Below are positions 8,742 through 36,674 of a DNA stretch of 36,674 bases, one piece after another (positions within the stretch are counted from its first letter, which is position 1; every line of letters starts with the position of its first letter). Origin of the DNA: a virus. The stretch is taken from positions 1 to 36,674 of IMG/VR virus record IMGVR_UViG_3300020027_000276; one strand, given 5' to 3'. The notes under the pieces are model-generated. The model ran no database searches, was not told where the DNA came from, and saw nothing but the letters and a program-made list of their open reading frames with translations. A program made the position numbers and the translations under genes.

Positions 8742-9035
8742 ATGGATGCGGAAACAAAGGCATATTTCGAGAGGATAAATAAAAAACTGAGTCTTCTCAT
8801 TGACCAGAAAAATACTCAGACATGGGTGTCAGTATCTTGGGTTGTTGATCTTACAGGCTGGGACAATCAACGCATGAGAATGGCTCGCGAGCAAGGGATT
8901 GTAAAATTTAAAAAGGCAGACACAGGCGGGTATTTGTATTTAATTGAATCAATACCTAAACTCTTTCTAAAAAATTACTATGACAACGGATCAAAGGTTG
9001 GAGAGAATAGAGAGGCTTCTAAGGGATCTCATTAA
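8742..9035 (+). CDS. HTH paralog 1 of 4
   Basis: This is the first of four related proteins in 8742-11229. The plan is an N-terminal coiled helix (FERINKKLSLLIDQK), then TWVSVSWVVDLTGWDNQRMR, a basic helix (REQGIVKFKK), and Y-L-Y-L-IESIPKLFL at about residues 66-80. This resembles a MerR/excisionase-like winged helix in which a hydrophobic IESIP segment ends the fold. It likely binds DNA, perhaps as a dimer through the leading helix. Its last 56 bases overlap the next paralog, so the extreme C-terminus is probably dispensable. An imperfect TATATTTTG element precedes it. The exact role is not known. Confidence 0.6.
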   Translation: MDAETKAYFERINKKLSLLIDQKNTQTWVSVSWVVDLTGWDNQRMRMAREQGIVKFKKADTGGYLYLIESIPKLFLKNYYDNGSKVGENREASKGSH

Positions 9036-9234
9036 AGTTTCATCTAAAAAAACATGGGTTAACTCTTCCTGGGTCATGCATGTAACCGGATTTACTAAAG
9101 AACAGATGAGATCTGCGAGAATGCAAGGTATTATAGAGTTCAAGCACTCGAAGACGCAGACTTATCAATACCTATTAGAATCCATTCCAGAAGTTTTTTT
9201 AATCAAGAAAACTTGGCCAAATGAACCCGCTTAA
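8980..9234 (+). CDS. HTH paralog 2 of 4
   Basis: This 84-residue protein repeats the family plan: LERIERLLRDLIKV, KTWVNSSWVMHVTGFTKEQM, a basic RMQGIIEFKHS stretch, and YQYLLESIPEVFLIKK at the end. It starts 56 bases before paralog 1 stops and itself overlaps paralog 3 by 14 bases, so the trio is a translationally linked tandem array. Its compact form without extra extensions probably represents the basic family unit. The likely function is DNA binding, for example excision or transcription control. This rests on fold-level reasoning only. Confidence 0.6.
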   Translation: MTTDQRLERIERLLRDLIKVSSKKTWVNSSWVMHVTGFTKEQMRSARMQGIIEFKHSKTQTYQYLLESIPEVFLIKKTWPNEPA

Positions 9235-9811
9235 GACCGCATCCGTTATTGACAAGAAGGTAGAAACACTTGCACTAGAGAAGCCTAAAAAGTTTAGATT
9301 TCTGGATCCATCGCGACCAATTGTACCACCAAAGAAGCTGACAAAGAAGGAAAAGGCTGCTGCAGAACAACAAGAGATAAAAGAATGGTCGGAAATACTT
9401 CGTGCGAAATGGGAACGACGAGATGCCATAAACGCAAAAAAATGGATAGAAAAAATAAAAAATGATGCTGCTATCACAATAAAGGAGGCAGAAGCGGTTT
9501 TGCCACAACCTCTTCGTGAAGAAATAAAGGCCGAATTCGAGAAAATAAACGAGAAGCTGGATCAACTGCTGAATAGGCAAAAAGGAAAGATCTTTTATAA
9601 GGCCAGTTTTAAGGAAACATGGGTAAGCGCTCAATTTATAATAGATCTTACGGGATGGAATGGTCAACGATTAAGTCAAGCAAGGAAGCAACGAATAATA
9701 ACGTATCGAGCACATAACGATCAGAGAGGTTACGAGTATCTGGTAGAAAGCTTAAGTGAAAAGTTCATTCTGAAAGTGATCGCCAAGCCAGATGCGCCTC
9801 CTAAAAGTTGA
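9221..9811 (+). CDS. HTH paralog 3 of 4 with a lysine-rich N-terminal extension
   Basis: This 196-residue protein has the family HTH in its C-terminal third (EKINEKLDQLLNRQ, ETWVSAQFIIDLTGWNGQ, RKQRIITYRAH, YEYLVESLSEKFIL). A unique N-terminal extension of about 105 residues is highly charged (PPKKLTKKEKAAAEQQEIKE, KWIEKIKND) and likely a coiled coil. The extension may let it contact RNA polymerase, DNA or a partner. It overlaps paralog 2 by 14 bases and ends just before three leftward tRNA genes. An extension of this size on one copy only suggests functional divergence. Confidence 0.6.
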   Translation: MNPLKTASVIDKKVETLALEKPKKFRFLDPSRPIVPPKKLTKKEKAAAEQQEIKEWSEILRAKWERRDAINAKKWIEKIKNDAAITIKEAEAVLPQPLREEIKAEFEKINEKLDQLLNRQKGKIFYKASFKETWVSAQFIIDLTGWNGQRLSQARKQRIITYRAHNDQRGYEYLVESLSEKFILKVIAKPDAPPKS

Positions 9812-10963: not shown

Positions 10964-11229
10964 ATGTTAAAAATGAATTCATACGAAATGTTTGACCATA
11001 TCAGCCAACGCCTTGAAAGAATAGAAAGGCTCCTGAGAAACAGCCGACCACCAGCTAAAAGAAAGACCTGGATTAAAGTTAGCCAGGTCCGACAAATCAC
11101 TCCCTGGAAAACAAAAGATCAATTAAGGACAGCACGAGAGACCGGCCTTATTGAATGCAAGCGCGATAAAAATGGATTTTCTATTTACTCGAATCTATAC
11201 CTGAGATTTTCTTATTAGAAAAAAAGTAA
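10964..11229 (+). pseudogene. HTH paralog 4 of 4, frameshifted
   Basis: The frame from 10964 (or 10973) encodes the family plan, LERIERLLRNSR, KTWIKVSQVRQITPWKTKDQL and RETGLIECKRDKNG, then stops early in 11216-11218 with an aberrant tail. A -1 shift at about 11180-11182 restores Y-L-L-E-S-I-P-E-I-F-L-L-E-K-K with a stop at 11227-11229, exactly the ending of the other three paralogs. No canonical XXXYYYZ slippery heptamer is present, so a point deletion, a programmed shift of another kind or a sequencing error all remain possible. It lies after the tRNA block, separated from the other three. Confidence 0.65.
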
Positions 11230-25890: not shown

Positions 25891-28394
25891 GTTACGGCAC
25901 ACAATATAGGGCTGAGTTCAGTAATGAGCTGAATCAAAATGTTCTGATTCTGTTCGCACAGAAAGACGTAGCACCGCTATCCGATCCGATACCTTTTGAA
26001 ATATCCGAGGACGGGTTAGAGATGAACGATGATTCGGATGATGGAACAATCATTGCGCGGGAGGTTGTTATAACGATCAATGCCGACGACCAAACGGCGA
26101 TAACATGGGAGACCTTCTTAACTGGTGGTTATGATGAGTGGTGGGTTATCATCTATGTAGATTACAATGCAGTATTTGAAGGCTTTCTGACACCAGAAGA
26201 AGGTTCTGCAGCTTTCCTTGATAAACCTTACGACGTAACACTGAGGGCTACCAATGGCCTGAAATTGCTCCAAAATATACCACTCACAAAACAGGATGGG
26301 TTAACTTATAAGGGAAAATTTACTCTTATTGATTATATCTCTTCAGCGTTATCGAAAACATTGCTAAACAATATTTCATCATCTACTGGAATACCGATAA
26401 GAATTTATTCGAATGTCTTTGAGGCATCCATGACCAATAGGTATCTGGATATAACTAAAGACTTTTACCAACAAACAAAACTCGATCACAGGACTTTCCA
26501 GAAAGATCCTACAACATTCGTTTCTTGCTACGATACTTTGTCAATTATTCTTAAACGACATTCCCGGTTATTTTACTGGAATGCTCGTTGGGTTATTGAA
26601 TGGATTGGTGAGCATCAATACGCTCCCGGTGGAAGGTATTACACAGAATACAATGCCGACGGAACGGTTATTCAGGGAGTCGAAGATCTTGAGAATTATG
26701 CAACCGTTGGAAAGACTGCTCTGATATATCCTATCAATGAGGATCAATTAGTGTCCTCCAACTTCGCTATCAATCTCGCAAGGACTGACTTTAAATTTAA
26801 AGTCTGGAAAGAAATACCTCTAAACAATAAGTTCGATAGAGGCACCTTCATCGACGAAGGACCGATGGCCGATATTTATGATCAGGATGGTGACGGAAAT
26901 ATCACTGAGACGATCGGAACTTATAAAAGGCACACTATTGATGATTGGACTTATGGCTTAATGACCTCAACATCAAACTTCGTAAATTTGCCGGCATTAA
27001 CCCCGGCTTCAGCAGTCCCATCACGAAGATCTATTTATACTATCTATGGCACGGAAACAATAAGAGAACTCATTTTGCCGCCTGTATCAGGTGGCAGCAC
27101 CCCTTCGTTTTATATGCTACAAGCAGATGGCATACCAGTGAAAGCTTACAGTCGCTTGAAGATTACTATGTCCTTGCGATTGGATAGCCCATATAATCCA
27201 TCAACCGGCTCAATACCATTTTTTAGAGGGTATATTCAAAGTAGTTCTTTGACTGATAGGCATTGGCTTCGCTATAGTGACGATGAAGAAAAAGACAAAG
27301 CAGAGTGGATAAAGGACAGTTTGGCTGGAAGTGGGTATGCTGTGAATAGCAGGCTGATGATTCTTAGTGATACGACCAAGTTTTATTCCCTTACAGTGGA
27401 AACGCAAACTATACCAGTGGACGGCACGTTTTATTTTTCGTTCATTACCGGACCGACAGGGCGAACCATATATATTACTGGCTTTGACCTTGAATACATC
27501 CCTTATATTGCCGGCGGATATATTCAGGTAGAAGGGGATTACGTACAACATTCTCAGGATGCGAATAATCAGGATAACGACATAGAGGAGATAATGATAT
27601 CCGATTCTCAGATTCAGGTTGTGGAGGGGGCAATGTTGAACGCTGCAGGACTGCCAACCAATCCGACCTGGTACCGGGGAAACATTGTCGAACGACAACA
27701 CTTCAAAGGACTGGTTAACCTGGTCCGCTTCAATATGGCATGGAGAAGATTTTGGGATATAACAGGATCTTTTACATCCCTCGACTTTGAACCTGAGAAT
27801 GATCAGTTGAATAAACAACCTATCGGGTATCATAAAAATTATCGGTTCATTGATCTTGGATTAGTCCGGGAGTTTATCCTCCGGCCTCCTTTAAGAATGA
27901 ATTTGTGTACGGGAGATATCAATGCTGAATTTCAGGAAGTCTTGCAACCAACGAATACAACTGAGGTATCCGTGGAATACTCAGATGTGATGGCTGCGAT
28001 TGTTCTTGCGATCAATCAAACCACCAATTCAGAATGGGACAGCGCGGGGCTGGCACCGGGAATCGGAACGCCATACTTTCCTCCGCAAGCTGCGGTTTTC
28101 ACACCATTTACAACGGTGCTAGCAGTAGTAACTAACCCCGGCGGAGTGGTAACTGTATCAGCTTCGCCGGGGACGGCTTCTAATACTCCTGTTCTTTTCA
28201 AGGATAGCGAAACAGTAGTAGACGGAAAGAGAATAACGGTTATTACACTCGGGCCAGATATAGAAATCGGCAACATATTCACAGTGTCGGTTTTCGGGCA
28301 TGACGTGGTTTATACTGTAGAAAATAAAATTGTTCCAGTAGATGGAGGCCAAGAGGGTGCTTTTAAATTCGACTATAGTTTCGGCAATGGCTGA
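25887..28394 (+). CDS. Distal tail / tail-tip (baseplate) protein
   Basis: This 835-residue protein follows the tape measure and probably forms the tail tip. The N-terminal part (about 1-130, YRAEFSNELNQNVLILFAQK, then WWVIIYVDYNAVFEGFLTPE) has the distal-tail beta pattern that docks on the tail tube. The rest is beta-rich with aromatic and Gly/Pro loops, and the C-terminal ~150 residues have a Val/Thr-rich Ig-like beta region (GGVVTVSASPGTASNTPVLF). It may carry receptor-binding or cell-wall contact functions. I see no peptidase or lysozyme catalytic motif. Confidence 0.7.
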   Translation: MSYGTQYRAEFSNELNQNVLILFAQKDVAPLSDPIPFEISEDGLEMNDDSDDGTIIAREVVITINADDQTAITWETFLTGGYDEWWVIIYVDYNAVFEGFLTPEEGSAAFLDKPYDVTLRATNGLKLLQNIPLTKQDGLTYKGKFTLIDYISSALSKTLLNNISSSTGIPIRIYSNVFEASMTNRYLDITKDFYQQTKLDHRTFQKDPTTFVSCYDTLSIILKRHSRLFYWNARWVIEWIGEHQYAPGGRYYTEYNADGTVIQGVEDLENYATVGKTALIYPINEDQLVSSNFAINLARTDFKFKVWKEIPLNNKFDRGTFIDEGPMADIYDQDGDGNITETIGTYKRHTIDDWTYGLMTSTSNFVNLPALTPASAVPSRRSIYTIYGTETIRELILPPVSGGSTPSFYMLQADGIPVKAYSRLKITMSLRLDSPYNPSTGSIPFFRGYIQSSSLTDRHWLRYSDDEEKDKAEWIKDSLAGSGYAVNSRLMILSDTTKFYSLTVETQTIPVDGTFYFSFITGPTGRTIYITGFDLEYIPYIAGGYIQVEGDYVQHSQDANNQDNDIEEIMISDSQIQVVEGAMLNAAGLPTNPTWYRGNIVERQHFKGLVNLVRFNMAWRRFWDITGSFTSLDFEPENDQLNKQPIGYHKNYRFIDLGLVREFILRPPLRMNLCTGDINAEFQEVLQPTNTTEVSVEYSDVMAAIVLAINQTTNSEWDSAGLAPGIGTPYFPPQAAVFTPFTTVLAVVTNPGGVVTVSASPGTASNTPVLFKDSETVVDGKRITVITLGPDIEIGNIFTVSVFGHDVVYTVENKIVPVDGGQEGAFKFDYSFGNG

Positions 28395-28796
28395 TTATTT
28401 ATTGACTAGAGAGAGTTCGAAAATAATTATCCTCTAACAAGCCAGATAAGATAAAATATTTGAGAGTTGTTATTGTATGTTTTTATCTTTGATGAACATT
28501 ATCTTAATGTTTACATCCTGAATTTAAAGGATGAATTTTCTCCGTACCCTCTCCGTTATAATCCAAAGAATATTAAAAGTAAACTACGCTATGCATTCAC
28601 TCCAAGTGAAATACAATGAAGAAATTCTGTAAGGGCCTACCAGACGCGAGCTCCATCCGTTTTTCATAAATACATCAATCATCTTAATCAACACAATACA
28701 ACAAAAGACTAGCGCGATTGCTACTTTGATAGAGCAAATGCAAAATTGATTTAGGAACTCCACCATTGGAAACGGCAAAGATTAAAGGCAAAAAGA
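28395..28796. other. Gene-free stretch after the tail genes, with a promoter
   Basis: This 402-base region holds no convincing gene; a leftward 64-codon frame at 28584-28778 is judged a shadow because of poor composition. On the plus strand TTTG (28459-28462) and TATCTTTG (28484-28491), 21 bases apart, make a promoter-like pair 305 bases before the sigma-like gene. No terminator is obvious. Confidence 0.45.
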
Positions 28797-29555
28797 ATGA
28801 AGAAATATCAAACAAAGACACCCTTCCCAGACTACTGTCCTATCAAACATAACCGATTTAATAATTTCGTCAATGCGAATATCAGATATTTTCAATGGCT
28901 AATTAACAACTTCTCAGGATTGGAGTCTAAGGACGACCGTGATGACCTGATGCAGGAAGTACTTTTATCAACATGGAAAAGATTTGACACTTTTAGTGGT
29001 GTGCATTTAGCAGGTTGGCTTAAGAAGACCGTAGAATATTGCTCGTCAAATTATCGGCAAGCTTATGTCAAATATAAAAACAGGAATGTTTTCGGATTAG
29101 ACTTCGATCGAATCGAACCTGTTGTAGAAGAGTATAGCGAAGACCATTTACAGAAATTGGAATGGGCTATGGCTAAATTACCGGACTGTGATCAAGAGAT
29201 ATTGGCGATCTATCTTAACCCGAACACGTCACTTAGGCGTGAAGCAATGATCCAGGGAAAAGGAGATGGATATTACGACAAAAAATTTTCGCTCATAAAG
29301 AGTGATCTAAAATGTTTGTTACAGGATAAACCTCCCCCACCCCGCTTCGTAAGGATAGGTGAGGGCTACCATTCTAATAAAGCAATTATTCAGCTAACGA
29401 AGGATGGACAATTTGTTAAACGATGGTCATCTGCAAAGGAGGCGGGAAGAGGGGGATTTAATTCAAAGAACATTGCAAATGTGTTGAAAGGTAAAAGACC
29501 GACTTGCCAGGGGTTTGTTTGGAAATATGAAGTTAAAGATTGCGAAACGGAATAA
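28797..29555 (+). CDS. ECF-sigma-like protein fused to a NUMOD1 domain
   Basis: This 252-residue protein combines three parts. Residues about 26-95 form a sigma region 2 (DDRDDLMQEVLLSTWKRFDT, then GVHLAGWLKKTVEYCSSNYR), which binds the -10 element and core polymerase. Residues about 118-176 form a region 4-like HTH (LEWAMAKLPDCDQEILAIYL, KKFSLIKSDLKCLLQ). After a Pro-rich linker, residues about 196-245 are a NUMOD1 module (AIIQLTKDGQFVKRWSSAKE, NIANVLKGKRP, GFVWKYE), usually found in HNH homing endonucleases. No nuclease motif is present. It may redirect polymerase to particular sites. The fusion is unusual. Confidence 0.7.
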   Translation: MKKYQTKTPFPDYCPIKHNRFNNFVNANIRYFQWLINNFSGLESKDDRDDLMQEVLLSTWKRFDTFSGVHLAGWLKKTVEYCSSNYRQAYVKYKNRNVFGLDFDRIEPVVEEYSEDHLQKLEWAMAKLPDCDQEILAIYLNPNTSLRREAMIQGKGDGYYDKKFSLIKSDLKCLLQDKPPPPRFVRIGEGYHSNKAIIQLTKDGQFVKRWSSAKEAGRGGFNSKNIANVLKGKRPTCQGFVWKYEVKDCETE

Positions 29556-29737
29556 CGCTGGCACAGAATGATGCAAACGCTTAAAAGATGATTTCCCCAT
29601 AACCCGGTCGAGGAGTGCCTTGTTCTAGGGCTGACTGAAGGTATTAAGTAATTTACTTGGTTAAGAGTAATCATATTGTTTTAAATAGAAGTTAAGTCCA
29701 ACATGAAAAGACTACTTTTCCGAAACGATATAGTAAT

Positions 29738-29745
29738 TAATTTTG
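29738..29745 (+). promoter_or_regulatory. Promoter -7 element for the gene at 29813
   Basis: TAATTTTG matches TAnnTTTG and lies 68 bases before the ATG at 29813. Upstream there is no clear TTG at the standard spacing, only TTTTC at 29716-29720, so strength is uncertain. The rest of 29556-29812 shows no gene. Confidence 0.4.
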
Positions 29746-29812
29746 TAATTTGTTCCTTAAGAGTTAAATTCAAGTGATTTTCTTCAACCTTTGCATAACC
29801 TAAAAAGTTGCC

Positions 29813-30244
29813 ATGACACAACCTCAACAAGAAAACATAATAGAGTTACAACCTAAAGAGTCACTCGCATGGGTTTGTTCCTTTTTAGTTCCTACAGCAG
29901 ATTTGTGGCTGGTACAGATTCATTTTCTGAATCTTGATATACCAGTTTGGGAGTTAAGAAATGAACAAATGGGAAATATGCCTCATTCGTCTTCGTACAC
30001 CAATAACACTAATACTTTGCAAAAAATACAGGTATATGTTCAGAGCCACGTGGATTCGACCGCGCCTGGCTATAACCCCGTGCTTGTACGCAAAACTGTA
30101 GTTACACACGAAAATCCATTTGATCCCGATATCCCAACATCGGTGACGCAAGGAATTACAATTGAATACCACTTTAGTAACGATTCTTCGACTTTTTTAG
30201 ACGAATGTACAATTAAGCTTAGGCTCTACGGGCTAACTTCATAA
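29813..30244 (+). CDS. Hypothetical protein with beta-rich fold
   Basis: This 143-residue protein has a beta-strand pattern (AWVCSFLVPTADLWLVQIHF, IPVWELRNEQ, LVRKTVVTHENPF, GITIEYHFSND) with a Ser/Thr/Asn rich middle (SSSYTNNTNTLQ). It has its own promoter-like element and stands alone after the sigma-like gene, so it looks like a moron-type cargo gene. It could be a surface or tail-associated protein or a cell-entry modifier, but no family is recognised. It contains no signal peptide. Confidence 0.45.
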   Translation: MTQPQQENIIELQPKESLAWVCSFLVPTADLWLVQIHFLNLDIPVWELRNEQMGNMPHSSSYTNNTNTLQKIQVYVQSHVDSTAPGYNPVLVRKTVVTHENPFDPDIPTSVTQGITIEYHFSNDSSTFLDECTIKLRLYGLTS

Positions 30245-30472
30245 TCCGATAAACCACTGGTTGTCAAAAAGCATAGGATAAGTTTTTAACCGGGTTGTAC
30301 TTAGCTCCGACACAGACGCCTCTTCTATGAGTGCCTATATAGTGAATATAGAGTTGCGAATGCAAAAGCAAATTGCAAAAAGCGCTTTGATTGAATCAAA
30401 GGCATCATCGGAATCTTATGTGGAAATATGCGGAGGTTTTATAATCCTATATTTGCTTCAATCAATTTCAGA
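30245..30472. other. Non-coding spacer with a perfect palindrome
   Basis: No gene is supported here. CTTTGATTGAATCAAAG (30385-30401) is a perfect palindrome with a single central base and could be an operator or hairpin. A rightward frame that begins at 30327 is judged spurious because most of it overlaps the better leftward gene at 30473-30871. Confidence 0.4.
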
Positions 30473-30871
30473 TTACTTATTAAGGATGGCAGTAATCCTT
30501 TTTGTCAAATCAGAACTAAATCCAAGAGGCAGTATAGTTCTTCTTTTTTCTCCATGCCAGATTACTTTAAATTTACCGGATTTTTCATTCTCTATATAAG
30601 GCAGCCAATTATTCAAAGCTTTGCTTAGATAAAGTTTAAGTTGGTATTCAGCTGTACCATTTTTTTCTCTCGGGGAGTTATGGAAATCTACTTTTAGTAA
30701 TGATATTTTTCGATTTTTCTCAACGCATTTAGCACAAAGTTCACTTTGGTGACGCATAATGCGATCGCAAAATTCTTTCATGTCTGCTTCGTACTGAGCC
30801 TTTGCTGCATTTTTGTTTGCGACCTTGCCCCGATTGATGTATGCAACTTTAAGAAAACTCATGAAATCCAT
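30473..30871 (-). CDS. Leftward hypothetical protein
   Basis: This 132-residue basic protein (start ATG 30871, with 30862 an alternative) has a helical N-terminus (KVANKNAAKAQYEADMKEFC), a C-x2-C pair (ELCAKCVEKNRK), and strands (ISLLKVDFHNSPRE, GKFKVIWHGEKRR). It may bind metal through the two Cys and nearby His, which is not certain. It lies leftward opposite a poor rightward frame. No family is recognised. It may be the last gene of a leftward unit that begins at 31096. Confidence 0.5.
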   Translation of the reverse strand: MDFMSFLKVAYINRGKVANKNAAKAQYEADMKEFCDRIMRHQSELCAKCVEKNRKISLLKVDFHNSPREKNGTAEYQLKLYLSKALNNWLPYIENEKSGKFKVIWHGEKRRTILPLGFSSDLTKRITAILNK

Positions 30872-30910
30872 TTTTAGGTTCTGAAGTAGAGGTAAATTGG
30901 CAATCGAAAT

Positions 30911-31096
30911 TTACACTTCTATTTGACACGCACTGTACACCGTCTTCTGAAAACTTCCGTCAACAAAGACAGACAGTTCATTGATTAGTCGGCCGTATTC
31001 CGTTGCTCTATCTGTAGGTCCGCAATAAACTTCTATCCATCGATCGTCGTCCCTGATCAGGGTCGCGGAAATGATCTCCATTACGATAAATGGCAA
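30911..31096 (-). CDS. Small leftward hypothetical protein
   Basis: This protein has 61 residues (start ATG 31096; ATG 31081 gives 56). It has alpha/beta character with an acidic middle (ISATLIRDDDRWIEVYCGPT) and a helix (RATEYGRLINELSVF). It is 39 bases upstream of the previous gene on the same strand, so the two probably share a transcript. No homologous family is recognised. The region to its right, up to 31283, is non-coding with no further feature seen. Confidence 0.45.
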   Translation of the reverse strand: MPFIVMEIISATLIRDDDRWIEVYCGPTDRATEYGRLINELSVFVDGSFQKTVYSACQIEV

Positions 31097-31282
31097 ACGT
31101 CATTTCGTTATTTGGATAGCTAGTCAGGACCCTAATGTCGTGCTTCGAGCCGGCTTATCCATTTTAGGAAGTTATGAAATTCTCGGCTGAAAAAAATCAG
31201 GAAAATTTGAAATCTTACCGCATAAAATAACTGTATATAATGGACCATTTTGCCTTATACATGTTTCTTAAGCCCTGTGAAT

Positions 31283-31296
31283 GGGCATTTTACTTT
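31283..31296. repeat. 14-bp direct repeat, left copy
   Basis: GGGCATTTTACTTT occurs perfectly at 31283-31296 and again at 33425-33438, bracketing the two-gene unit with the ImmA-like protease and the decayed NUMOD1 gene. Each copy is preceded by a short GC-rich inverted repeat and is followed by T-rich sequence, so both may be terminator-like. They could reflect module insertion. Confidence 0.5.
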
Positions 31297-31340
31297 TCTT
31301 TAGACTCAAGACTCTGATACAAACCGGTTTCCTTACCGCA

Positions 31341-31409
31341 TTGGAATATTATTTTTAATATTTTTGGAATATTTTTTTGCCAATTCCGGAAAGTGACTAT
31401 ATTTGGAAT
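31341..31409 (+). promoter_or_regulatory. Promoter with three TTGGAAT sites
   Basis: TTG (31377-31379) and TATATTTG (31398-31405), 18 bases apart, form an excellent Bacteroidota promoter; the ATG at 31424 is 18 bases on. TTGGAAT occurs at 31341-31347, 31364-31370 and 31403-31409; the first two copies extend to TTGGAATATT. The third copy overlaps the -7 element. The XRE protein of the second gene is the likely regulator. Confidence 0.55.
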
Positions 31410-31423
31410 CAAAATACCAGACT

Positions 31424-32032
31424 ATGAAAACCATTCTACAGTTTGAAGACGCAAATGAGATTTTGAAACCATACTATTCGGCACTTATCAAATGTTTAGA
31501 CAAAAGTTTTGCTGATTGTAACGCTATGAGTAATTTCTTTTCAACTCAAAATCCAGCCCACTTTAAACCGAGGACTAAGGGATCATTTATCGCTGACCGG
31601 CTGAAGATTCATCTCGGTAATCAATTTGACGCCGACTCAAACATAAGATTTGTTGAAATTAAAGGGGCTTTAGCTGTTGTAATTCAAGAAAAACTTGTAG
31701 TGCGGTTTAACAAGATAGATCAGCGGTTGAGAATGTCCATTAACCGTAGAACAAAGTCGTCGAAGCGCTACCTTAACCAAATTCCAATGGAAGGGCTAGA
31801 AGATATGACATATGTGTGGGGAGGCTATATGCCAGATAAAATTTGGAGTACTATAAATGGATACTACCTCACTTGTTATAATGGTAACTTAAATTGGCAT
31901 TACGACATGGGCAAAAATAGTTCTCTACAACAATTGAGTATTGAAATTCCACAAGATAAAGCCGCTAAACGCGTTAAACCAAAAACAAGACAAGGCAGCA
32001 ATTCGAACAAGAAAACTGGCACCGAAGACTAA
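31424..32032 (+). CDS. Hypothetical partner protein of the XRE-ImmA gene
   Basis: This 202-residue protein (from ATG 31424) is followed after 12 bases by the XRE-ImmA gene. It contains FIADRLKIHLGNQFDAD, a strand-rich middle (RFVEIKGALAVVIQEKLVV), the positive segment KIDQRLRMSINRRTKSS, then VWGGYMPD and YYLTCYNGNLNWHYDMG near residue 150-165. The end is disordered and basic. Similar proteins accompany XRE-ImmA/IrrE proteases in other genomes as far as I recall, but I cannot name the family. It may be a toxin, a substrate or a sensor partner. Confidence 0.55.
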   Translation: MKTILQFEDANEILKPYYSALIKCLDKSFADCNAMSNFFSTQNPAHFKPRTKGSFIADRLKIHLGNQFDADSNIRFVEIKGALAVVIQEKLVVRFNKIDQRLRMSINRRTKSSKRYLNQIPMEGLEDMTYVWGGYMPDKIWSTINGYYLTCYNGNLNWHYDMGKNSSLQQLSIEIPQDKAAKRVKPKTRQGSNSNKKTGTED

Positions 32033-32044
32033 ACAATAAAAAAT

Positions 32045-33097
32045 ATGAGGATTCTTAATACTGAAATTCTTGCTTTAGCCAGGGAATCACGCGGCTACAA
32101 CCAAAATCAACTTTCAGATTTATTAAGAGTAGAGCAAGGAACCGTATCGAAAATCGAAAACGGCAGGCTAGGCATCACTGATGAACTATTAGTGAAGATT
32201 GCTACAATCCTTAACTATCCGGTTGATTTGTTTTACGACGTTGAGAGAGTAATTAAAGTTGAAGGGCATTATCGAAAAAAGATTTCTTTACCGGCGAAAG
32301 AGTTGAAGGAATATAAAAGTAAAATGACTTTTGCCGAAAGGCACATTAATAAACTTTCAGATGCAGTTGAATTACCTGACGTCAAGATACCTTCATGGGA
32401 TGTAGAATCAGATGGGGATATCATTCAGGCGGCAAACTTTCTTCGTGAATATTGGAAAATCCCAAGAGGAAGAATAGAAGATTTGGCAAAAGTGACTGAA
32501 GATAATGGCATTATTATCGCTCCACTTGATTTAGGGGATATGGACGCGTTAAGCACCTATTCTTCCAGATATAATTTACCCATATTGTATGTCAACAAAA
32601 AGAGATCGGCTGATCGAATACGGTTTAATAATGCACACGAGCTCTGTCACTATGTCTGTCATTTTGGAAAAAAAATCTCTTCTGAAAGAGACATTGAAAA
32701 AGAAGCAAACATCTTCGCAAGCGAGCTTTTGTTACCGACTACCGAAGTCTTGCCACAACTGGTAAATTTAAACTTAGAAAAACTTTCAGATCTGAAAAGA
32801 TATTGGAAGGTTTCAATGCAAGCTATACTTTATAAAGCGAAATTTTTGAACGCTGTATCGGAAAATCAATATTACTATCTGGTCAAACAAATGAGCTCAC
32901 TTGGATACAGGAAGAATGAACCGATTATGATTCAACCTGATAACCCCAATCTTTTACGAGAGATATTGCAAACCTACATTGAGGATATGAGTTATTCGAA
33001 AACAGATTTAGCAAAAATTTTGTATCTCAATGAAAGTGATTTAGAGTCCACTTATTTTGGTGGAAGGCCAACTCCGAAATTCAACGTTTATCGGTAA
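32045..33097 (+). CDS. XRE HTH protein with ImmA/IrrE metalloprotease domain
   Basis: This 350-residue protein has an N-terminal XRE HTH (about 8-65, SRGYNQNQLSDLLRVEQGTV) and a zinc protease domain with HELCH at 198-202 and a third ligand near Glu220 (EKEANIFASELLLP). ImmA/IrrE-family proteases cleave repressors, as in ICEBs1 where ImmA cuts ImmR. Here DNA binding and cleavage are in one chain. The protein could sense damage or infection and degrade the phage or a partner repressor. It is co-transcribed with the upstream gene. The C-terminal 90 residues are a separate helical region of unknown role. Confidence 0.9.
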   Translation: MRILNTEILALARESRGYNQNQLSDLLRVEQGTVSKIENGRLGITDELLVKIATILNYPVDLFYDVERVIKVEGHYRKKISLPAKELKEYKSKMTFAERHINKLSDAVELPDVKIPSWDVESDGDIIQAANFLREYWKIPRGRIEDLAKVTEDNGIIIAPLDLGDMDALSTYSSRYNLPILYVNKKRSADRIRFNNAHELCHYVCHFGKKISSERDIEKEANIFASELLLPTTEVLPQLVNLNLEKLSDLKRYWKVSMQAILYKAKFLNAVSENQYYYLVKQMSSLGYRKNEPIMIQPDNPNLLREILQTYIEDMSYSKTDLAKILYLNESDLESTYFGGRPTPKFNVYR

Positions 33098-33103
33098 AAG
33101 AAC

Positions 33104-33402
33104 TTGCGAAGCATATTGGCATCCTTCTTTTCACTCACTGAAACTCAAAAATCGGGATTCACCTGGGCATTAGTCAAAAAGGCAATAGCCGAAAAAACCA
33201 TATACCGAAATTGTTATTGGAGGTATAAAGAAAAATCTCAGGTTGTTTACTTGCAACTAGATAACCGAGGTAAATTAATTCGCGAGTGGTCAAACCGGAT
33301 GAATTGAAAGCTGCAGGATACAGTCCTAATCAGATTAAACGAGTTTTCAGAGGTGAAACCAAAATGCATAAAGCCTTTTTATGGCAACGGGTTGCGTCAT
33401 GA
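33104..33402 (+). pseudogene. Decayed NUMOD1/IENR-type gene
   Basis: The main frame after 33104 encodes GFTWALVKKAIAEKTIYRNC, WRYKEKSQVVYLQLDNRG and KLIREW, then a stop at 33305-33307. A -1 shift near 33296-33298 continues as DELKAAGYSPNQIKRVFRGE and KAFLWQRV to TGA 33400-33402. That ending matches the NUMOD1 domain of the sigma-like protein (QLxxxGxxIxxW, then IxxVxxG, then FxW). A third frame just upstream (SVKELAKHIG near 33091-33117) also looks like part of it. It lacks a start and has two shifts, so it is decayed. It lies directly after the protease stop. Confidence 0.6.
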
Positions 33403-33424
33403 AACATTCGATTCCCCAGGGAAG

Positions 33425-33438
33425 GGGCATTTTACTTT
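33425..33438. repeat. 14-bp direct repeat, right copy
   Basis: GGGCATTTTACTTT, identical to 31283-31296. It is preceded by CCCC-AGGGAA-GGGG and lies between convergent genes (the decayed NUMOD1 gene and the leftward operon at 33453-35256), where a terminator would be useful. Confidence 0.5.
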
Positions 33439-33452
33439 ATAACCTCAAAAGT

Positions 33453-33905
33453 TTAAACTTCTTTGAAAAAACTTGCTAAAAAGGCTTTAACGTCTTTTTG
33501 CTGTTTTTTACTCAGGCTTGCTAAAACACTTGTAAATACAAGGTCACAGTGAGATCGGTTACAGTTTGTTGGCGTATGTTGAATATTAAATTCCGCTGAA
33601 CTTTGAGGATCTTTCCATGGGAAAGGTCCAATCGCCACTCCGGGTCTACCAACCTTTAAATGAAAGTCACAACTCCTATTTTCAATGTCTTCGAGCTCTG
33701 CCCACATGACGTCTGTAGGATCATTGGAATATTTACTTCTATTTAATGATAATCCCGCAGCAACGTCGGTCCATTTGATTTGACTAAATACGTCTGGAAT
33801 CGGCTGGAAGGGGTTGCCAGTGAATCGACGATAAAACCTTTCGGCCGGCTCGAAGCTACAGTCTTCCGTTCGGTCAAATTCAGACAGATAGGTCGGTGGC
33901 GTCAT
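33453..33905 (-). CDS. Third gene of the TIGR04255-led operon
   Basis: This 150-residue protein is not recognised. It has an aromatic N-terminal part (PPTYLSEFDRTEDCSFEPAE), FHLKVGRPGVAIGPFPWKDP, and conserved-looking polar residues (HTPTNCNRSHCDLV) near residues 110-125, which include two His and two Cys that could bind metal. A terminal helix follows (KKQQKDVKAFLASFFKE). Its start overlaps the previous gene stop by 4 bases, so it is coupled to the TIGR04255-like set. Function is unknown. Confidence 0.5.
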   Translation of the reverse strand: MTPPTYLSEFDRTEDCSFEPAERFYRRFTGNPFQPIPDVFSQIKWTDVAAGLSLNRSKYSNDPTDVMWAELEDIENRSCDFHLKVGRPGVAIGPFPWKDPQSSAEFNIQHTPTNCNRSHCDLVFTSVLASLSKKQQKDVKAFLASFFKEV

Positions 33906-34543
33906 TCAGATACGAATGCATTAGTTATTGTATTCAGAGTGACTTTTCCTTCAGTATCCAAGTGGATACTTCTGTATTTACCTGGGGTTGAAGAAACATA
34001 GATATAGGAAACTTCGTCATCTTCCTCACCGATAACAATATAATGTGTTCCATCCTCCCCTGCCCGAAAGATAGCAATTTCATTATCCGCAGTAAATGAG
34101 ACGGCGAAATCATGAGCCGTTAAAGCAAGGTCTTCGCTTAAGATATCAGCAATTGCTTGAAATTGGGATAGTTGGGGAGTGGTTAGAACGTGTTCGTCGT
34201 CGTGGAATAGTTTTTCTAATTGATCTTTAAAAAACTTTCTTTTTCGTTTTGACAAATCATCAATGGCGAAGAAACGATTGCTTATCCCATGTGACAACAA
34301 CGATAAAAAATAAAAGTGAAGCCCTGTCATTCGACTGACAGAGACGGGTGGCGCCCACGCTAAGGGCCTGCCATTATAATTCATCTTGTATATTCTGGAA
34401 GCATGGGGATTCGTCGGGAGATCGAATATCTCGCGATTGTACAATAATTCCAAATCAACTCCCTCACTTGTAGAGTTCTCCGTTAAGTAAGATCCAGTCG
34501 AGGGCATGCGACTAAGTTCAATGTCATTGTAGCTTAATTTCAT
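33902..34543 (-). CDS. Second gene of the TIGR04255-led operon
   Basis: This 213-residue protein is not recognised. It begins SYNDIELSRMPSTGSYLTEN, has a basic middle (RKFFKDQLEKLFHDDEH), an alpha/beta core (ALTAHDFAVSFTADNEIAIF), and near the end DGTHYIVIGEEDDEVSYIYV. Both flanking junctions are 4-base ATGA overlaps (with the genes at 33453 and 34540), so the three proteins are likely made in fixed ratio and may form a complex. No catalytic motif stands out. Confidence 0.55.
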   Translation of the reverse strand: MKLSYNDIELSRMPSTGSYLTENSTSEGVDLELLYNREIFDLPTNPHASRIYKMNYNGRPLAWAPPVSVSRMTGLHFYFLSLLSHGISNRFFAIDDLSKRKRKFFKDQLEKLFHDDEHVLTTPQLSQFQAIADILSEDLALTAHDFAVSFTADNEIAIFRAGEDGTHYIVIGEEDDEVSYIYVSSTPGKYRSIHLDTEGKVTLNTITNAFVSE

Positions 34544-35256
34544 AATGAATTATATTTATCAATGGCAAATGGAGTAATACTCGCGAAAAAAATTTCATTT
34601 TTGAATGTTCTTAGCGCAGCGAAATCATCACGCATATCAATTATTGCATTTCCTGCAGTTGGGATAACATTTTTAATGACGTCTATATCTAAATACAGTT
34701 TCTGTTGGCCGCTAACATCGACTTGAAGAAGTTCGTTGATAACACCACTTGCGGCAGACACCGCATCAAAGACCTCCATGCGGATAAAGGAAGAAATCAG
34801 GGGCTTTTGAATTGGATTAGGGGGTACGATGGTTAAATATGTGCTAACAGTTTCGCCAGGCTCCAGTATAAACTCATTAATGAACCGCAACGAAAATCTT
34901 CGCCATATCTGGGGTCGGAAATGAATAATATATTTATCAAGAAACTTTATTGCTTCAGGATAAAAAGAATCCCAGCTTGTATACTTTTGATTCAGAAATG
35001 AAAAGGCAAACCCATTCTCTCTGGCTTGAATTGAGACATTGTCTTTGGTATAAAATGCAATTCCGATCGTCTTTCGCTCAACGCTACTAATTGAATCAGA
35101 AAGCGTGCCTCCGATTTGAACTAAATTTTCATGTCTGTAAAATTCATCACCTAAGACTTCTCGAAATTGTTTAAATTCTGAATATTCAATAGACCGGCCA
35201 TGGTCAAACAGGACCTCAAGAATCGCTTCTTTGATCGGAGGCTTTGATAAAGTCAA
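34540..35256 (-). CDS. TIGR04255-family protein, first gene of a three-gene operon
   Basis: This 238-residue protein matches the TIGR04255 pattern: LSKPPIKEAILEVLFDHG at the start, GIAFYTKDNVSIQARENGFAFS, SWDSFYPEAIKFLDKYI, RFSLRFINEFILEP, KLYLDIDVIKN and LRTFKNEIFFASITPF. Family members are sporadically distributed and of unknown function. The start is TTG at 35256; no ATG gives the conserved start. The next two genes overlap by 4 bases each, so this is the leader of a tight three-gene unit. It lies between the ImmA/NUMOD1 module and the integrase. It is a candidate host-defence or moron module, but this is inferred from context. Confidence 0.65.
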   Translation of the reverse strand: MTLSKPPIKEAILEVLFDHGRSIEYSEFKQFREVLGDEFYRHENLVQIGGTLSDSISSVERKTIGIAFYTKDNVSIQARENGFAFSFLNQKYTSWDSFYPEAIKFLDKYIIHFRPQIWRRFSLRFINEFILEPGETVSTYLTIVPPNPIQKPLISSFIRMEVFDAVSAASGVINELLQVDVSGQQKLYLDIDVIKNVIPTAGNAIIDMRDDFAALRTFKNEIFFASITPFAIDKYNSL

Positions 35257-35459: not shown

Positions 35460-36674
35460 TTAAAACTCGTTCTTAACTTGCCGTAGTCTTTCATGTTGCC
35501 GCTCTTTTTCGCCCCCAAGATAATGGTCCATCGTAACGATTAGAGATGTATGTGCAGCCATTTTTTGTGCATCAATTGCTGAAAGTACTGCTGCTGTCTC
35601 GTCCAGGTTAGAATGCTTTAAACTATAAAAGTCAGCGGTAATCCCAAGCTTCTTTTTTACATGTCGATTCCAACGCCGGCATACCTGGTTAGAATTAATG
35701 GCTCTGTAACCGGGAATAAGGCCATCAGAAAAAAGAAAGTCATCTGATTTCGCCTGTTCAATCACTTCTTTCCAAAGCGGTAAAACAATGTCCTTGATCG
35801 TTCGCCAGGTCTCCCGGTACTGTTTACCTTTTTTAATTGTCATTTTGTACCGCTGATTTAAAAGATCAACATCTTGCTTTCTAATCAGCATTAATTCAGT
35901 TTCCCTGGCACCTGAATGAAAAAAGATGTGCATGAACCTCCAGAAACTGTAGTGACTCTCCTTCAAGTACTCATTCACCCTGGACCGATCCTCGAGAGAC
36001 AGTCTTTCCCGGATCCGCTTGACAGTCTTTTGCTTTTTGATTTTTGCCACCGGATCAATCTCAGTTGCTTCCATTTCAATTAACTCACTGAAAACGATCA
36101 TCAGATATGACCTGTATTGATTGTGTCGGTGTGCGCTCCATTTGGGATTGTCTTTTGCACACTGCTGGAAAATAACTTTAATATGCTTCCTGGTTACTTT
36201 GGAGATCGGTATGGTAGAGATTCTTAACTTTTGCGCAGCTGCCGACACGCCCTTGACGGTTGACTTGATATCATCCATCGTTTTTTTCGCCTTTTTGATC
36301 ATGAGTTGTGCTGCGCTCAACGCCTGGACAAATGGAGTGGCGGGATCAATCATGCCTTCACCCAACAAATCATCGTCTAAGGGCTGCTCGAAGGTTCCTA
36401 AAATAGGGTTATAATTCTGTTGCTGTAGTAACGCGAGCTCCGAATCAATTAAAGCCCGGGTAGCATCCTGCCGGGATTTTAGTGTTATGAATTGATTCAT
36501 CCCTTTAATGATTTTCAGTTTCCCCCTCTTGGTGCCTGGTTGGTGGGGTATAGCTGGATCGTAAAACCGGTAATAGATCAACCAGGGACTTTTGATATTC
36601 GCCTTGGCAGTATTCCAATTTTTGGGGGAAACTTTTAGCTCAGTACAAGAGCAATTGTTGCATAGCTGTAGCAT
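35460..36674 (-). CDS. int: Tyrosine recombinase / phage integrase
   Basis: This 404-residue site-specific recombinase would integrate and excise the phage. N-terminal residues (LKVSPKNW, LIYYRFYDP) fit the Bacteroidota integrase class. The catalytic domain carries Arg257 (HSGARETEL), Lys near 281-284 (IKKGKQYRE), His375 (AAHTSL) and nucleophile Tyr385 (MDHYL). Box II, usually HxLRH, reads YSLKH (350-354), so the second His is Tyr and the second Arg is Lys, as in many Bacteroidota elements. The ATG is the last three bases of the window, so it could be trimmed further upstream. Confidence 0.85.
   Translation of the reverse strand: MLQLCNNCSCTELKVSPKNWNTAKANIKSPWLIYYRFYDPAIPHQPGTKRGKLKIIKGMNQFITLKSRQDATRALIDSELALLQQQNYNPILGTFEQPLDDDLLGEGMIDPATPFVQALSAAQLMIKKAKKTMDDIKSTVKGVSAAAQKLRISTIPISKVTRKHIKVIFQQCAKDNPKWSAHRHNQYRSYLMIVFSELIEMEATEIDPVAKIKKQKTVKRIRERLSLEDRSRVNEYLKESHYSFWRFMHIFFHSGARETELMLIRKQDVDLLNQRYKMTIKKGKQYRETWRTIKDIVLPLWKEVIEQAKSDDFLFSDGLIPGYRAINSNQVCRRWNRHVKKKLGITADFYSLKHSNLDETAAVLSAIDAQKMAAHTSLIVTMDHYLGGEKERQHERLRQVKNEF

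Follow-up and report, generated by a model that had tools for sequence, protein, structure and literature searches.

A single gene of the window, by which we mean the whole stretch of DNA analysed here (a 36.7-kb virus record with a siphophage-like gene order), was found to encode a protein of 252 amino acids that joins an ECF sigma factor to a C-terminal NUMOD1 module. A sigma factor is the subunit of RNA polymerase that sets the start of transcription. Within the collections searched, the protein looks like an ECF sigma factor whose C-terminal extension is of a type not reported before. The explanation that we prefer is that a working ECF sigma factor acquired the tail by which a homing endonuclease binds DNA, which would give the holoenzyme an extra contact with DNA; in our judgement, it has about an even chance of being right. 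The main rival to this explanation is a neutral leftover fusion. The positions of the features are given in Table 1.

Table 1 Features of the window discussed in the text
Feature	Position	Strand	Basis
Whole fusion gene, ECF sigma factor and NUMOD1 (252 aa)	28797..29555	+	Open frame, coding-like codon use
Sigma region 2 (residues about 19-93)	28851..29075	+	Profiles, ECF alignments, model helices 19-38, 45-65 and 71-96
Sigma region 4 helix-turn-helix, divergent (residues about 115-178)	29139..29330	+	TIGR02989, alignment, model
Short proline-rich linker (residues about 179-187)	29331..29357	+	Gap between the two profile matches
NUMOD1 / I-HmuI-type DNA-binding module (residues 188-248)	29358..29540	+	Profile matches
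Decayed second NUMOD1	33098..33399	+	N-terminal half in frame 33098-33304, C-terminal half in frame 33274-33399
Integrase, right end of the window	35460..36674	-	Gene annotation

The fusion gene is a single open reading frame that starts at the ATG at 28797, within a frame that runs without a stop from 28755 to 29552. The codon-usage scores of frame 1 (0.108 in the sigma part and 0.084 in the NUMOD part) are coding-like, while those of the other frames are near or below zero, with one exception at 0.054. A frame artefact or a sequencing join was ruled out, because there is neither a stop nor a frame change and both halves are coding-like. The joint between the two parts sits at a domain boundary. 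In family profile searches, no nuclease domain (HNH, GIY-YIG or other) was matched outside the NUMOD1 stretch.

The core of an ECF sigma factor comprises about 160–180 amino acids and consists of regions 2 and 4. In the fusion protein, the sigma core spans residues 19–178, and regions 1.1 and 3 are absent, as in ECF sigma factors. Three profiles match this half: the NCBIfam ECF model TIGR02989 (residues 42–171, E 5e-10), the NCBIfam sigma70-ECF model TIGR02937 (E 9e-5) and PHROG 1740 'RNA polymerase sigma factor' (residues 16–138, E 9e-9). The Pfam model Sigma70_r2 matches residues 42–79 with an E-value of 5.6e-4, which is under its curated cut-off, region 4 was not detected by Pfam, and the sequence matches to PDB entries are weak. 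Since the Pfam and NCBIfam scores lie under the strict cut-offs of the families, the sigma half is a divergent family member; it diverges more than any other of the 16 sigma sequences in the comparison (18.8 bits, the lowest of the others being 39.5). Region 2 carries the DDLMQE and GWL...SNYR motifs common to ECF sigma factors. In the alignment with plasmid and viral ECF sigma factors, D49-D50-L51-x-Q53-E54 fall on the core-binding motif, and S145, A150 and L171 fall on the helix-turn-helix of region 4. The DDLMQE core-binding stretch is the best-preserved part of the sigma half. Thus, both elements by which an ECF sigma factor is recognised, a region 2 with the core-binding motif and a region 4 helix-turn-helix (the latter from TIGR02989 and the model described below), were found. 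Separately, two phage sigma factors of PHROG 1740 (L098:2893-3741 and L115:2848-3648) were observed to carry an insert of roughly 70 residues in the turn of the region 4 helix-turn-helix, and they have relatives without the insert.

When the whole protein was folded without relatives, the model was uninformative (pLDDT 34.7). The sigma half was modelled alone with viral ECF sigma factors, because a joint alignment of ECF and NUMOD1 sequences put the ECF region 4 on NUMOD1. The AlphaFold model of residues 1–181, built from an alignment with 15 viral ECF sigma factors, has a pLDDT of 80.5 and a two-domain shape, and its region 4 helices (115–127, 130–140, 146–152 and 159–175) reach a pLDDT of about 92–95 over most of their length. 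In the Foldseek comparison with the PDB, sigma factors make up at least the first 40 matches, the best being 5uxx (probability 1.00, E 1.4e-3). The modest E-values probably reflect a predicted domain placement unlike that of any solved structure; as this placement gives a TM of about 0.3–0.4 against the solved structures, the fold of each domain alone was used.

The NUMOD1 half scored 75.7 bits against a profile built from 32 viral NUMOD1s without the fusion protein, while the best of 5,000 shuffles gave 9.5 bits, by which a chance match is ruled out. PHROG 20162 (HNH endonuclease) matches residues 195–247 (E 6.6e-9), and PF22083 (I-HmuI_NUMOD-like) matches residues 208–242 with an E-value of 7e-4, which is under the cut-off. 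In a leave-one-out test, the NUMOD1 of the fusion protein scored 79.2 bits, above 22 of the 32 viral NUMOD1s, and therefore it is not decayed; as judged from this score, it is as well preserved as the modules of intact homing endonucleases. The NUMOD1 family profile also matches residues 133–171 of I-HmuI (PDB 1u3e, E 3.5e-5), which form the C-terminal helix-turn-helix that contacts DNA in the crystal. In I-HmuI, the tail contacts DNA at a distance from the cleavage site. The NUMOD1 of the fusion protein is homologous to this DNA-contacting tail, and its closest relatives are C-terminal tails of homing endonucleases of phages. Among named proteins, an HNH protein from Pseudomonas phage CL comes nearest to the module (42% identity over 59 residues). 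Furthermore, the residues just before NUMOD1 are shared with a subset of HNH proteins (RAGKDHIRSKPVLQ, KRGEEHHRNKPVIQ and KTGKDNHNAKPVYQ versus RIGEGYHSNKAIIQ); the linker is similar to those of L025, L047 and P0003, and the Pseudomonas phage CL protein is less close. The similarity extends into this G-x(3)-H-x(2)-K-x(3)-Q stretch, which makes it probable that a single capture event took the module from a homing endonuclease of the HNH type.

These results uphold the part of the sequence-only reading that concerned the architecture, namely sigma regions 2 and 4 and a C-terminal NUMOD1 joined in one protein that has no nuclease motif. The family searches returned matches to both parts, and the predicted fold is of the two-domain helical sigma type. 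The domain limits proposed there (26–95 and 118–176 for the sigma regions, 196–245 for NUMOD1) are close to ours. A decayed NUMOD1 about 3.5 kb downstream had also been claimed, and it was recovered as two frame-shifted fragments that match complementary parts of the profile and are both weak (10.1 and 11.1 bits). Homologs of the same architecture, for which a search had been suggested, were not found in the phage, plasmid, IMG/VR and GTDB collections, as described below.

The frame-shifted copy shows what an unselected module looks like in this IMG/VR record, and that NUMOD1-type elements come and go in this phage. The copy lies in a region with features of its own. The gene at 32045-33097 (+) matches the PADLOC model RmrA (1e-62), of a RosmerTA-type toxin-antitoxin or defence pair, and the ORF at 31403-32032 (+), which has no strong model match, is its likely partner. 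A 24-nt direct repeat (31273-31296 and 33415-33438, +; 88% identical) flanks the RmrA pair together with the decayed NUMOD1, and it may mark a mobile cassette or be terminator-like.

No second fusion of a sigma factor to NUMOD1 was found in IMG/VR, GTDB contigs, or phage or plasmid collections by searches with the whole protein, the sigma motif and the NUMOD1 motif; the IMG/VR and GTDB scans relied on short exact or near-exact peptide matches, which reach near relatives and could miss distant fusions, and GTDB was covered with this protein by one scan. A relative over the full length of the protein was likewise absent from the matches in these collections. The search for relatives of the sigma half alone gave no further fusion. 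In the 80 viral loci fetched for their related NUMOD1s, no sigma-like N-terminus occurs; HNH or GIY-YIG motifs can be recognised in about 70 of them, and in a few the N-terminus is unnamed by Pfam. Likewise, a NUMOD1 tail occurs in none of the 21 viral ECF loci fetched. The literature search yielded no report of a NUMOD joined to a sigma factor, and the domains that a review gives for ECF extensions are sensory, protein-binding or anti-sigma-like, with NUMOD1 not among them (PMC8999054). As no homologue of the same architecture occurs in the searched collections, conservation provides no argument for a targeting role.

According to the neutral explanation, a homing endonuclease gene landed beside a prophage sigma gene and a deletion then took the nuclease and left its tail in frame; NUMOD1 would be unused, and the sigma factor could be working or not. 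The fusion being a singleton, the habit of NUMOD1 to travel with homing endonucleases (as in the roughly 70 of 80 viral relatives above) and the decayed remnant 3.5 kb away are in its favor. However, the NUMOD1 half is as intact as in intact nucleases, the frame is open throughout the gene, and the joint falls at a domain boundary, and we regard a neutral origin as rather unlikely, although a very recent fusion would look alike in all three respects.

The surroundings of the gene were also examined. Genes for a DnaB-type helicase and a primase-type zinc ribbon, then for a terminase, a portal and a Mu F-like head protein, and then a tail-family match are followed by a cargo region, in which the fusion gene stands alone: there is no same-strand gene in about 400 bases before it or in 257 bases after it. 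With 37–39% identity, the terminase is similar to terminases of Bacteroides, Parabacteroides and Flavobacterium phages, and therefore the host is likely a member of Bacteroidota. Under the preferred explanation, with its even odds, the fusion gene would be a lone accessory gene (a 'moron') that a Bacteroidota prophage carries between its tail genes and its integrase. A promoter scan of 28380-33500 gave no more matches than shuffled sequences, and no promoter or binding motif was derived; a repeat scan around the fusion gene gave nothing beyond chance. A neighbouring anti-sigma gene is common with ECF sigma factors and is not universal; family searches matched no cognate anti-sigma gene in the ORFs flanking the fusion gene.

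Two other groups of genes were observed in the window. One is a three-gene cluster next to the integrase (33453-35256, -), whose first gene (34540-35256, -) matches TIGR04255 (E 6e-22) and whose other two genes match nothing. Another is a set of four small genes (8742-9811 and 10964-11218, +) that look paralogous by eye and share a TW(V/I)...V stretch followed by a TG(W/F)-type motif; one of them has a weak excisionase-like match (DUF1233, E 0.028).

The NUMOD1 module might instead be a regulatory extension that masks region 4 or core binding until needed, like the extensions of the ECF41 type. N- or C-terminal extensions with a predicted regulatory role occur in at least 26 ECF groups, and such an extension is inhibitory in ECF41 and required in ECF42 (PMC8999054); the lack of an anti-sigma-like neighbour by family search fits this explanation as well. 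We nevertheless consider it improbable, in that NUMOD1 is akin to the DNA-contacting tail of I-HmuI and not to a ligand- or protein-binding domain. It is very improbable that the sigma half has ceased to bind polymerase and that the protein acts as a repressor with two DNA-binding heads or inhibits a sigma factor of the host, as the divergence of this half and the missing Pfam match to region 4 could suggest, since the core-binding stretch is its best-preserved part and its fold model is confident.

Sigma factors normally read promoters via their own regions, which are regions 2 and 4 in the ECF kind. Under the preferred explanation, the capture of a homing-endonuclease tail by a working sigma factor, region 2 would bind the core of the host RNA polymerase and melt the − 10 region, and region 4 would read the − 35 element. 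Because the I-HmuI tail binds away from the cut site, NUMOD1, placed behind region 4 on a flexible proline-rich linker, could touch DNA at or upstream of − 35. Such a sequence-specific contact would raise the affinity or narrow the promoter choice for a few phage or host genes. Against this explanation, we count that no second case of the joined form turned up in the collections searched, that the sigma half is divergent, that its region 4 has no Pfam match, and that no promoter or binding motif was derived. A further step, which we take tentatively, is to regard the protein as a prophage sigma factor that owes its promoter choice, or the sharpness of that choice, to the homing-endonuclease module, that is, as a protein-encoded addressable sigma factor in parallel to RNA-guided ones. 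If this is true, a natural sigma factor with a swappable DNA-recognition module would offer a simple evolutionary route to new promoter specificity, it would be the protein-based counterpart of RNA-guided sigma factors, and the known uses of homing-endonuclease parts would be extended to transcription.

Three kinds of known systems can be compared with the fusion protein. The first is the ECF sigma factors (TIGR02989, PHROG 1740 and 5uxx), which likewise have regions 2 and 4 alone, the DDL.QE core motif and a two-domain helical fold; the fusion protein differs from them in its divergence and in its NUMOD1 DNA-binding tail, whereas the C-terminal extensions covered by PMC8999054 (SnoaL-like, TPR, WD40-like, Cys-rich and anti-sigma-like) are sensory, protein-binding or inhibitory, and none of them is NUMOD1. 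The second is the RNA-guided transcription complex with an RpoE-type sigma factor (PDB 9n9q), the sigma chain of which is among the Foldseek matches of the sigma-half model. This sigma factor, of about 260 amino acids with the ECF part at 16–186, is also coupled to an extra DNA-targeting device, which in this complex is a guide RNA with a separate protein. Unlike in the fusion protein, NUMOD1 is not detectable by profile in its C-terminal part, and none of the ORFs scanned on either side of the fusion gene encodes a guide-RNA-binding effector. The last is the HNH and GIY-YIG homing endonucleases (I-HmuI of 1u3e, the HNH protein of phage CL, and L004), with which the fusion protein shares the C-terminal NUMOD1 and the stretch just before it, and from which it differs in that a sigma factor takes the place of the nuclease.
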